From: Synechococcus sp. HK01-R
GTDB taxonomy: Bacteria; Cyanobacteriota; Cyanobacteriia; PCC-6307; Cyanobiaceae
NCBI RefSeq assembly: GCF_014217855.1
Contig: NZ_CP059059.1
Location: 1,550,001-1,614,000, forward strand
DNA length: 64,000 nucleotides
Reading direction: 5' to 3'
Shown here: positions 3 to 3,717 of the stretch, one piece after another
Layout: every line of letters begins with the position of its first letter
How positions within the stretch are numbered: the stretch's first letter is position 1
Notes under the pieces: generated by a model
What the model was told of the DNA's origin: nothing
Databases searched by the model: none
The model's input: the letters and a program-made list of their open reading frames with translations, nothing else
Made by a program: the position numbers and the translations under genes

Positions 3-611
3 GAAGCGATTACTGGAACTCCCTATCTGGGTGCTGATCAACTCGCTGCGGCCTGCGGTTCCGATGCCCCCGCCGGCACTGAAACCCATGGTGTGTCACC
101 GGAAGGTGCCCCTTGGACACGTTTCAGTGTGATGTCCCCCGCCCGTGCCGCTCAACAGGATCGTGAGCTTCGTTCCGGGGTCACTGGCACCGCCTATGAG
201 CAGGGGAGCCGCATCACCGGCCCTTTTGATATGGCCGGCGGAAAAGTCACGGGTACCGAGCAGTTTCGCTTCGATAACCGCGAATTCCAGAACCGGCAAC
301 AGCGACAGTTCCAGCCCACCGTGGCTGTGGTGAGTGAGCCTCCCACCAAGCCTGTCTCTCGGGTCACCGGCGAGGGTTCGTCCACCAAGGTCACCGGCGA
401 CGACTGGGACCGTGGTGAGCACGTCACGGGTACGGAAGGGGCTTCAGCCCGCCGTCGCAATCCTTCCCGTCCTGGCCCGATGAGCGCCATGTCGTCCTTC
501 GAACGCAAGCGCAACCAGGAAACGGAGTGGCCCGTCAGCCGTGTGACCGGCTCCTCTGGCAACACCGACAAAGGATCGCTGATCACCGTCTCCGGCGGCG
601 CTCGGGGCTGA
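3..611 (+). CDS. csoS2: Carboxysome assembly protein CsoS2, C-terminal part (5' end outside window)
   Basis: CsoS2 is the intrinsically disordered scaffold that ties Rubisco to the alpha-carboxysome shell. Only the last ~200 residues are present; the reading frame is open from base 3. The visible part carries the repeat signature of the middle/C-terminal regions: many V-T-G or I-T-G triplets (SGVTGT, SRITGP, GKVTGT, SRVTGE, TKVTGD, EHVTGT, SRVTGS) and the terminal peptide ending GSLITVSGGARG, the highly conserved CsoS2 C-terminus that contacts the shell. csoSCA starts 7 bases downstream on the same strand. Family identity is clear from the motifs and from the cso gene order; the N-terminal Rubisco-binding repeats lie off the edge. 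Confidence 0.95.
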   Translation, partial: EAITGTPYLGADQLAAACGSDAPAGTETHGVSPEGAPWTRFSVMSPARAAQQDRELRSGVTGTAYEQGSRITGPFDMAGGKVTGTEQFRFDNREFQNRQQRQFQPTVAVVSEPPTKPVSRVTGEGSSTKVTGDDWDRGEHVTGTEGASARRRNPSRPGPMSAMSSFERKRNQETEWPVSRVTGSSGNTDKGSLITVSGGARG

Positions 612-618
612 TCGAAGA

Positions 619-2409
619 ATGGTTCGCTCCCAACCATCGGCACGGAGCGGGCGCCCACTGGCTCCCACGGCTCCCACACGTCGTCAGCTGCAGTTGGCTC
701 AGGCCCTCTCCAGCTCAACTGAGATGGGACCCAACCAGGATCAACCCGGATCGGATCCAGTTGCTACCACCCGCAGTGCCGCCCTTGAACGGCGTAAGGC
801 GCTGACCACTGCGGGCAAAGCGGCAGTGGTGAATGATGCTCGTTTGTCCAGTGGACGGATTCGTTCAAGTCAGGACACCCGACGACCTGTCGTGCAGCGC
901 CCCTCCTGGATTCGCCGGGATCAATCGGCTGAACTTCAGCCTCAGGCATGCTCTCCTTCCGCTCGATTTCAAGCGGCCACAGTGTCTCGCAGAGGTGTGT
1001 TGGCTGCCCATCCCCTCACCCAGCTCTCCGAGAACAACAGGCTCCAGGCCTATGAACTGGAGGTCAAGGGACGTTTTGATCGCATCGTTCCTGTTCTCCA
1101 GAGGGTTTCAGCCTTCCAACACGACGCTGATTTCATTACCCAGGCTCAACGCTTAGCTCGGGCCGAGCTCGGATTTGATCTACCCGATCACATCCTTGAG
1201 AAAGCATGGGTGCGTCCCCTCGACATGCGCGCCCTGTTTGCCTGGTGTGTGTTCCAGGCCCATCAATCCCTGAGCGAGCGTTTCTTTCTCGATGACCCTC
1301 TCGGCGGTGCGTCCGGGAGTCAGCGCGCTGAGCAGTTCAACACTTTCTTGCTCGACTGCGGTTTCCATCTGCTTGATGTCACTCCCTGCGCGGATGGTCG
1401 TTTAGCCCATTCCATTGCCTACGCCCTCCGCATTCCCTTCAGTGCCGTGCGGCGTCGCTCCCATGCCGGAGCCATGTTCGACGTGGAAAACACGGTCAAT
1501 CGTTGGGTCAAAACCGAGCATCGCCGTTTTCGCGAACATGTTCCCAACGAGCCCCATGCCCCTACGCGTTATTTGAAAGTGGTTACGTACCACTTCAGTT
1601 CTTTAGATCCATCCCACCAAGGCTGTGCCGCCCACGGCAGCAACGACTCCCTGGCGGCCTCTGCAGGTTTGCAACGCCTCAAGGATTTCCGTGAAGCCGT
1701 TGAGAACAGCTTCTGCTGTGGTGCTTCGGTGGATCTTTTATTGATCGGTCTCGACACTGACACCGATGCGATCCGGGTTCATGTTCCGGATCGTGATGGT
1801 GCGATCAAGCTTGATCAATGGTTGTGTGCTGCAACTCTTTATGAGAGCACCGCCTGTCTGCAGGCTGATCAGGCTCGTGAGGCGGTCATCGCTGCGGTGG
1901 AAACCCACTCCACGACGGCTCCTGATCCGGGCATGGTGCGCTTCATTGCTGAGTTACTGATCAACAATTTCTCCCAACAGGATTACGTCCGTGCCCTGCA
2001 CCACGGGCCCTATCCCGATGCAGGCCATGCTGAACGCTTTATCGGTGTCGGCATCGGGTTCAAGGAGGTGCATCTACGCAACCTCACCTACTTCGCCCAT
2101 CTCGACACTGTTGAGGAAGGTGCTCCGGATCTCGATGTCGGCGTCAAGATCTTCAAGGGACTCAATGTTTCAAGGGATCTGCCAATCCCTGTCGTTGTCC
2201 GCTTCGATTACTCAGGCAAGGTTCCTGGTGCCAGAGAGCGGGCTGTCGCTGATTGCCATCGCGTCAACCAAGCGATCGCCGCCCGCTACACGGAGCTTGT
2301 TGACGCCGGCCTGCTCCACACCATGCTCACGGTCCGAGATCGTGACAACCCCTCCCCTGCCGAAACGGTAGGGTCCTCCCTCGATCCTGTCCGTCAGGAG
2401 GCTCACTGA
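619..2409 (+). CDS. csoSCA: Carboxysomal carbonic anhydrase CsoSCA (CsoS3, beta-type)
   Basis: Converts bicarbonate to CO2 inside the alpha-carboxysome. The product has 596 residues, versus about 515 in Halothiobacillus, because of a long basic, probably disordered N-terminus (about residues 1-120). The zinc ligands are recognisable: Cys257 (TPCADGR, with the Asp259-Arg pair), His325 (TYHF) and Cys336 (QGCAAHG); the 68- and 11-residue spacings resemble those of the known enzyme. Residues 54-69 (AALERRKALTTAGKAA) look like a CsoS2 N-terminal Rubisco-binding repeat (see findings). The start is the ATG 7 bases after the csoS2 stop; csoS4A begins 2 bases after the stop. Confidence 0.95.
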   Translation: MVRSQPSARSGRPLAPTAPTRRQLQLAQALSSSTEMGPNQDQPGSDPVATTRSAALERRKALTTAGKAAVVNDARLSSGRIRSSQDTRRPVVQRPSWIRRDQSAELQPQACSPSARFQAATVSRRGVLAAHPLTQLSENNRLQAYELEVKGRFDRIVPVLQRVSAFQHDADFITQAQRLARAELGFDLPDHILEKAWVRPLDMRALFAWCVFQAHQSLSERFFLDDPLGGASGSQRAEQFNTFLLDCGFHLLDVTPCADGRLAHSIAYALRIPFSAVRRRSHAGAMFDVENTVNRWVKTEHRRFREHVPNEPHAPTRYLKVVTYHFSSLDPSHQGCAAHGSNDSLAASAGLQRLKDFREAVENSFCCGASVDLLLIGLDTDTDAIRVHVPDRDGAIKLDQWLCAATLYESTACLQADQAREAVIAAVETHSTTAPDPGMVRFIAELLINNFSQQDYVRALHHGPYPDAGHAERFIGVGIGFKEVHLRNLTYFAHLDTVEEGAPDLDVGVKIFKGLNVSRDLPIPVVVRFDYSGKVPGARERAVADCHRVNQAIAARYTELVDAGLLHTMLTVRDRDNPSPAETVGSSLDPVRQEAH

Positions 2410-3033: not shown

Positions 3034-3717
3034 ATGGCCACTCCAACGCCCCGCCGTCGCTCTTCCGCTGGTTCCAGCCCGTCGGCTGCTTCCTCAGGTG
3101 CTTCTGTTCCCTCCACGTCCAGCGGAGCGCTGACCCCTGCGGCCGCGACCCCAGCGGCAAGCACCTCCGCAGCGGCTGACAAGACAACGCCGGCTGTCAA
3201 AAACACACCGGCTGCCAAGGCAACTGTCGATGTGACCGCCGTTGCCGCAGCCACAAGCACACGCCGCAGTGCTAGTTCCAGCACCACAAGCAGCCGTCGC
3301 AGCACAAGCGCGAGCCGATCGGGTACGAGTCGCTCGACCAGCACACGATCCAGCAGCGCTTCCGGTGGTGCCGCTCGCCGTGCCTCCTCGAGTGTCTCTG
3401 CGGCTGCAACGCCTGCACCGATCAAGGGCATTGCCCTCGGCATGATCGAAACCCGTGGGATGGTGCCTGCAATTGAAGCGGCCGATGCGATGACCAAAGC
3501 TGCCGAGGTGCAGCTGATCAGTCGCGAGTACGTCGGCGGTGGCTACGTGACCGTCATGGTGCGCGGTGAGACCGGTGCGGTGAACGCCGCTGTTCGCGCA
3601 GGCGCTGATGCCTGTGAGCGAGTAGGCGATGGCCTGGTGGCCGCCCATATCATTGCGCGTCCCCATCAGGAGGTTGAGCCTGCCTTGGTGGCGACCGGCG
3701 CCCGTCGCCGCCTCTGA
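3034..3717 (+). CDS. csoS1E: Carboxysome shell protein of the CsoS1E type (BMC-H with long disordered N-terminus)
   Basis: A single bacterial-microcompartment (BMC) domain lies at about residues 130-215 (IKGIALGMIETRGMVPAIEAAD ... VNAAVRAGADACERVGDGLVAAHIIARPH), the fold of hexameric shell proteins. It is preceded by about 130 residues of Ser/Thr/Ala/Pro with many Arg and Lys, clearly low-complexity and basic. Marine Synechococcus cso operons are known to carry such a gene after csoS4B, called csoS1E. The arm could face the lumen and touch Rubisco or CsoS2, or the cytosol; the sequence does not say. The gene lies 44 bases after csoS4B and is followed by an 84-base gap before ndhF4. Confidence 0.85.
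   Translation: MATPTPRRRSSAGSSPSAASSGASVPSTSSGALTPAAATPAASTSAAADKTTPAVKNTPAAKATVDVTAVAAATSTRRSASSSTTSSRRSTSASRSGTSRSTSTRSSSASGGAARRASSSVSAAATPAPIKGIALGMIETRGMVPAIEAADAMTKAAEVQLISREYVGGGYVTVMVRGETGAVNAAVRAGADACERVGDGLVAAHIIARPHQEVEPALVATGARRRL

Follow-up and report, generated by a model that had tools for sequence, protein, structure and literature searches.

The 64,000-nucleotide stretch of DNA analyzed here, hereafter the window, is G000:C1:1550001-1614000 of a 2.48-Mb genome and opens on the end of csoS2, which is followed after a gap of 7 nt by csoSCA. The position beside csoS2 and three consecutive Pfam domains, CsoSCA_N at residues 131-223 (E 5.1e-41), CsoSCA_cat at 240-470 (E 3.2e-116) and CsoSCA_C at 471-587 (E 1.6e-55), identify the 596-residue product as the carboxysomal carbonic anhydrase. 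The features discussed below are as follows:

3..611, + strand: 3' end of csoS2, the putative donor gene of the repeat (Pfam CsoS2_M; upstream sequence; genome search)
619..2409, + strand: csoSCA, carboxysomal beta-class carbonic anhydrase, 596 aa (open reading frame; the three Pfam domains above)
664..693, + strand: PTAPTRRQLQ, residues 16-25, the cyanobacterial PTAPx[R/K]R element and a candidate general anchor
772..825, + strand: CsoS2 N1-type repeat core, residues 52-69 (RSAALERRKALTTAGKAA), with the exact pattern RxxxxxRRxxxxxxGK and homology to csoS2 N1
826..888, + strand: N1 arm, residues 70-90, with the conserved GRIRSSQDTRRP at 79-90 (nt 853-888)
895..918, + strand: QRPSWIRR, residues 93-100, a conserved tail element
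2412-2738: first of two EutN/CcmL-type (csoS4-like) genes after csoSCA, the second of which ends at 2989
3034-3717: BMC-domain gene

Among the downstream genes, the first csoS4-like pentamer gene encodes a Pro/Ala-rich C-terminal tail, PKPPSTPSAPAASPAAPPTPPQ; an ATG at which the next gene may start overlaps with the stop codon. The BMC-domain shell protein has a Ser/Thr/Ala/Arg-rich N-terminal extension of about 130 residues and resembles the CsoS1E described in PMC4499774.

Residues 1-130 of CsoSCA form a tail preceding the folded CsoSCA_N domain, and its MVR start is kept across marine tails. The preliminary description called this region basic and low in order, which is borne out by its composition (19 R and 2 K against 5 D and 3 E) and by the mostly low confidence of AlphaFold2: pLDDT is below 50 at residues 1-19, 34-49 and 58-126, and the model of the whole protein has two helices before residue 130, both of low confidence, at 21-33 (block pLDDT 67 and 48) and 51-64 (50 and 37). 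The same description gave residues 54-69 as AALERRKALTTAGKAA, correctly, and likened them to a CsoS2 N-terminal repeat; the likeness is real, but the motif was bounded too narrowly, as the full pattern starts two residues earlier, at R52. Residues 52-67, RSAALERRKALTTAGK (nt 772-819), match exactly the RxxxxxRRxxxxxxGK given as the CsoS2 motif in PMC10614612, the residues being R52-SAALE-R58R59-KALTTA-G66K67. Among the six-frame stop-to-stop segments of at least 60 aa in the window (79,646 residues), the CsoSCA tail is the single match to the strict pattern, and 52 of 200,000 shuffles of the tail (~1 in 3,800) contained it. The tail holds one copy, whereas CsoS2 is characterized by several repeats per chain. 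An acidic residue following the first basic residue has been described as a feature of CsoS2 N-repeats (Cai 2015, PMC4499774). It is absent here (S53) and missing in 52 of the 57 CsoSCA tails, being present in 5; it is not general in CsoS2 either, as none of the 75 N3 repeats has it.

The N1 repeat of csoS2 lies upstream of the window, at G000:C1:1548242-1548349, and CsoS2 of this genome begins MARLSSRELALERRKALTTAGKKASVAAGGKANRVRTASDARPTRT. Residues 52-91 of CsoSCA, searched against the whole genome in six frames up to E 10, gave two matches, the query itself and csoS2 N1 with its arm, the latter at E 1.3e-4 with 58% over 37 residues (query residues 1-37). Within this genome, 14 of 16 positions are identical between the CsoSCA copy and N1, and ALERRKALTTAGK is a run of 13 consecutive identical residues. 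Across the 31 genomes of the window's genus, 26 csoSCA-length and 27 csoS2-length frames were found at E <0.01 and nothing else; a third protein with the module was considered and rejected, since the next matches start from E 0.23.

Profile comparisons point to the same repeat. An HMM of 44 CsoS2 N1 units, built from loci whose CsoSCA does not have the motif, scored all 57 distinct tails at 21.4-41.6 bits, compared with 11.3 bits for the best of 5,700 shuffles. With profiles that include marine CsoS2, the median scores of the 57 distinct motif tails were 28.1 bits for N1, 10.4 for N2 and 5.0 for N3, and N1 was the CsoS2 repeat closest to the CsoSCA copy in all 29 loci having both. Repeat position 9 is mostly K, R or Q in N1 and in the CsoSCA copies, in contrast to E or D in N2 and N3. 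TT[SA] is the usual reading of the CsoSCA copies at positions 12-14, as it is of marine N1, and N1 of the other loci most often has S at position 12 and G at position 14. Against PDB chain sequences, the best match of the tail was CsoS2 of 8wxb, residues 4-42 (E 0.013), a protein that we take to be that of Prochlorococcus MED4.

The likeness extends past the motif, where GRIRSSQDTRRP in CsoSCA faces NRVRTASDARP in CsoS2 N1. The arm pattern R[VIL]R[STN]xx[DE], which was composed after the sequences had been seen, follows the motif in 55 of the 57 distinct CsoSCA tails and in 64 of 75 CsoS2 N1 repeats, compared with 0 of 75 N2, 0 of 75 N3 and 39 of 114,000 shuffles. An arm-only HMM from nonmarine CsoS2 gave a weak signal: 33 of the 57 tails scored above the 99th percentile of the shuffles and none above the best shuffle.

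On these comparisons, the CsoSCA block is homologous to CsoS2 N1, and the simplest reading is that it is a copy of marine-type N1. The suggestion that the carbonic anhydrase may have its own copy of the scaffold's motif thus holds, both in the alignment to CsoS2 of the same genome and in marine CsoSCA at large (below); the expected alignment to the N-repeats of that CsoS2 could be narrowed to one repeat, N1, including its downstream arm. The idea that csoS2 and csoSCA evolve in concert, or have recently undergone gene conversion, found no support: over 54 nt, the nucleotide identity of N1 and the CsoSCA copy averaged 0.611 within loci and 0.622 between loci. When the 29 loci (a few genomes being present twice) were paired at random, 4,918 of 5,000 pairings reached the observed identity. 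As copies from the same genome are no more alike than copies from different genomes, we see no sign of continuing exchange between the two genes.

Of the CsoSCA examined, 54 of the 57 belonging to two marine Synechococcus genera have the block (26/28 in the genus of the window and 28/29 in the second), compared with 0 of the 30 from other genera, the latter genomes being a chosen subset of those with a match. Of the genome sets, g1 includes three genomes without a match (G317, G322 and G332) and g5 has 32 genomes with a match, from which G329, G342 and G346 were left out. We call the two genera marine Synechococcus because they clustered with loci such as WH7803, and the name is to be understood in that sense. 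In the locus set, which overlaps with these genomes (e.g., L068 is G246) so that the counts are not summed, the exact motif occurs in 22 of the 69 loci with a readable tail. All 22 are titled Synechococcus; the motif is present in 0 of the 14 loci titled Prochlorococcus and in none of those titled Cyanobium or Vulcanococcus. The anticipated presence of the motif in homologous CsoSCA proteins is therefore confirmed for marine Synechococcus but not for the loci titled Prochlorococcus. The first ATG, or else the first GTG or TTG, was taken as the start of each tail, and some starts are guesses; L060, which has no N-terminal end, was dropped.

The three marine genomes where the block is missing, G162 (L077/L159), G193 (L091/L160) and G181 (L137/L161), all keep PTAPTRR and have an intact CsoS2 N1. 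Compared with its relative G112, G162 has a tail shortened by 24 residues, with the motif gone and the arm retained; in G181 and G193, the whole stretch between PTAPTRRQLQ and QPAWxRR is absent. The three exceptions are deletions rather than decay and, with PTAPTRR kept in each, show that the block is dispensable somewhere. Degenerate remnants in the motif-negative lineages were looked for and rejected: one of 77 distinct negative tails (L119) has four of the five key residues, and we read this partial match as chance because it overlaps the PTAP element. A separate case is the CsoSCA of G049 (L093/L168), which sits on a long branch and, as read, has a 138-residue tail with neither PTAP element nor N1 block; either its docking differs or its start codon is misplaced.

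A quick tree of 112 folded-domain sequences needs four changes of the motif label, compared with a mean of 32.6 for shuffled labels. That tree splits the marine Synechococcus rows, three of the four changes being forced by starred branches, and would imply two origins in marine Synechococcus. Against this candidate, a tree with these rows held together had a log-likelihood higher by 10.3 and a p-AU of 0.671, such that a single origin is not rejected. On the grouped tree, one gain and two deletions would do.

The rates of change differ strongly along the tail. For 56 distinct marine tails (L015, with an undetermined residue, being excluded), the dN/dS of the N1 core was ~0.08 and that of residues 16-25 ~0.07, against ~0.06 for the part of the folded domain at residues 131-185; residues 93-100 gave ~0.11, the arm (70-90) ~0.29 and the linker (26-49) ~0.66. 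All of these values are rough because synonymous differences are near saturation (pS ~0.7). The pace of change in the N1 core is close to that of the folded domain, and the linker preceding the core drifts. Since the set was picked by the motif, its R, RR and GK columns could not vary; A61, L62, A69, R80 and R82, none of them used for the selection, are also invariant in the set.

The PTAP element, here PTAPTRR at residues 16-22, precedes the N1 copy by 20-30 residues in each of the 57 distinct motif tails. Its P16, A18 and P19 are invariant in 45 CsoSCA, and a PTAP-like element is found in 151 of 169 loci (some genomes twice). PTAPx[R/K]R is reported from 87% of cyanobacterial sequences as a possible binding motif (PMC10614612). 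Before residue 131, marine tails also have a conserved QPGWVRR (window 895-918) and, in many, NLSRSSLP. The freshwater CsoSCA tails (L036-L044, L047, L050, L052 and others; Vulcanococcus and Cyanobium-like) have instead a block LSKVLRQRELA followed by RRVRPVA, and this block is possibly another docking element. The block bears a vague likeness to CsoS2 elements, but a second, freshwater-type capture found no support: with HMMs of N1, N2 and N3, none of the 22 distinct tails scored beyond the 99th percentile of the shuffles. Four of the 22 passed that level with an HMM made from the end of the N-terminal domain of CsoS2, the best score being 8.9 bits against 8.7 for the best shuffle, and hhalign gave a probability of 0.3% (E 0.2).

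On the side of Rubisco, we checked the contacts named for H. neapolitanus in PMC10614612. In the cyanobacterial rows of CbbL, D99 is found in 62/62 rows with a residue, S345 and F346 in 66/66 and G362 in 65/66; in CbbS, Y96 is found in 74/74 rows and D94 in 73/74. Position 72 of CbbL (H. neapolitanus numbering) is Phe in 62/62 cyanobacterial rows (four further rows have no residue, and some genomes appear twice); the cbbL of this genome is L072:5245-6657. In H. neapolitanus the residue is Tyr, and Y72 is called conserved in alpha-carboxysome Rubisco in PMC10614612, with which the cyanobacterial rows do not agree. Phe72 can stack with an arginine, the contact described for CsoS2, but has no hydroxyl for the bond made by the Arg of Halothiobacillus CsoSCA. 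The N-terminal repeats are the part of CsoS2 reported to bind Rubisco (PMC11365436, PMC12918739), and density at the Rubisco site of native Cyanobium carboxysomes was assigned to the CsoS2 N-peptide (PMC9314367). The CbbL of the Cyanobium carboxysome entries also has Phe at 72 and matches the CbbL here over 470 residues; a Phe72 Rubisco thus evidently accepts N-repeats.

We consider it probable, at about 0.7, that early in the history of marine Synechococcus N1 was copied from CsoS2 into the neighboring csoSCA and then retained under selection, and that it is a candidate CsoS2-type Rubisco grip. Under this reading, N1 with about 20 residues of its arm would have been placed in the disordered N-terminal tail of the adjacent gene product. 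The block would form a short helix in the groove of form IA Rubisco that is used by the CsoS2 N-peptide, its Arg pair and Lys contacting Rubisco, such that CsoSCA and CsoS2, sharing the N1 motif, may grip Rubisco alike. CsoSCA is reported to be a hexamer in Cyanobium and H. neapolitanus (PMC11086599, PMC12646314) and could offer up to six such grips. The conserved PTAPTRR would serve as a second, more general anchor, and the two elements together would tether the carbonic anhydrase in the Rubisco-CsoS2 network, sharing sites with CsoS2 or competing for them. The CsoSCA and CsoS2 of H. neapolitanus are competitors for a single Rubisco site but co-occur in condensates (PMC10614612), and the same would be expected here with a shared motif.

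A wider reading is more tentative, and we would put it somewhat below even odds: that a short module, by moving to the next gene of the operon, changed how an ocean lineage docks its carbonic anhydrase, and that CsoSCA is a bivalent tether whose hexamer has six PTAPxRR anchors and six N1 grips with their arms. Phe72, with no hydroxyl for the Halothiobacillus-type bond, may have favored the N1 docking mode, and the strains with natural deletions would indicate where the module is unneeded. Several observations weaken the idea of an N1 grip as such. Three of 57 genomes deleted the block, repeat position 2 mostly has no acidic residue and position 9 is mostly K, R or Q; the arm-only HMM is weak; and CsoSCA of H. 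neapolitanus uses another peptide, with contacts between CsoSCA and the shell also reported (PMC12646314).

The alternative that fares best, though still unlikely in our judgment, accepts a true N1 copy but gives it a minor role, with PTAPx[R/K]R anchoring CsoSCA as in other cyanobacteria and the block adding weak extra valency or being dispensable. It fits the retention of PTAPTRR in the three block-deleted genomes, the spread of the PTAP-like element over 151 of 169 loci (some genomes twice), the naming of PTAPx[R/K]R as a possible binding motif in PMC10614612 and the fact that Prochlorococcus and the freshwater relatives examined manage without the block. It is at odds with the constraint on the N1 core, which equals that on PTAPTRRQLQ and the folded domain, and with the retention of the block in 54 of 57 genomes. 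Clearly less probable is that the module of N1 type, whether in CsoS2 or in CsoSCA, serves to bind something other than the Rubisco groove, such as the shell, another region of CsoS2 or CsoSCA itself. K, R or Q at position 9 (E or D in N2 and N3) means that N1-type repeats might act unlike the other repeats, the arm is common to N1 and the CsoSCA copies and absent from N2 and N3, and the CsoSCA-shell contacts in H. neapolitanus would also agree; all residues of the published Rubisco-binding pattern are nevertheless present, and it is for Rubisco binding that the CsoS2 N-terminal repeats have been reported. That a short basic motif arose in a disordered tail by chance or convergence is scarcely credible: the strict pattern alone does arise in ~1 of 3,800 tail shuffles, but the homology tests already contradict this explanation through the 13 consecutive residues identical with N1, the arm in common, HMM scores above every shuffle and csoS2 N1 as the only other match in the genome.

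The case for an N1 copy acting as the grip matters beyond this locus, as the solved alpha-carboxysome case, that of H. neapolitanus, relies on a peptide that this CsoSCA does not have. An abundant lineage of ocean phototrophs now offers a defined and conserved candidate docking element, a known partner site and close relatives with a natural deletion, and with these three the question of docking is directly testable with short peptides. The N1 block also hints at a tag with which enzymes might be loaded into cyanobacterial alpha-carboxysomes, and it clearly exemplifies the passage of a short binding module from scaffold to cargo.

The presence of a CsoS2 motif in CsoSCA is already in print for a handful of sequences, and the idea is thus partly known. 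PMC10614612 (2023) notes that RxxxxxRRxxxxxxGK occurs in "a handful" of CsoSCA from Prochlorococcus, takes this as suggestive of an evolutionary relationship and found no consensus motif across CsoSCA. The motif and the protein are the same as here; what differs is the distribution, as two marine Synechococcus genera have the motif as a rule and the 14 loci titled Prochlorococcus do not have it. The PTAPx[R/K]R element of the same study is present here as PTAPTRR, separate from the N1 copy. In the accessible text of the literature covered (PMC11086599, PMC12646314, PMC12918739, PMC9314367, PMC11365436, PMC4499774 and PMC13249358, mostly without subscription papers and preprints), the motif is nowhere called general in marine Synechococcus, and there is no mention of the copying of N1 with its arm or of genomes that have deleted the motif. 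New here are the wide occurrence of the motif in marine Synechococcus, its origin from N1 with the arm, the constraint on it, its natural deletion in some genomes and the CbbL Phe72 in 62/62 rows.

Compared with CsoS2 N1, the CsoSCA copy has the same exact RxxxxxRRxxxxxxGK and an arm ~9-13 residues downstream; it differs in standing as a single copy in the tail of a carbonic anhydrase, with Ser in place of Glu after the first Arg and Ala in place of Lys after GK. As in H. neapolitanus, the precedent invoked for it, the element sits in the disordered N-terminal tail of the same enzyme, a tail proposed to dock on Rubisco (PMC10614612). The peptide there is a different one, PRLDLIEQA, without the CsoS2 motif, and it binds deeper in the groove, with its Arg bonded to the hydroxyl of CbbL Tyr72, a position that is Phe here. 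PRLDLIEQA is reported to be nonconserved across species (PMC10614612), and it is absent from residues 1-130 of this CsoSCA, where the N1 copy would provide a CsoS2-type grip instead.
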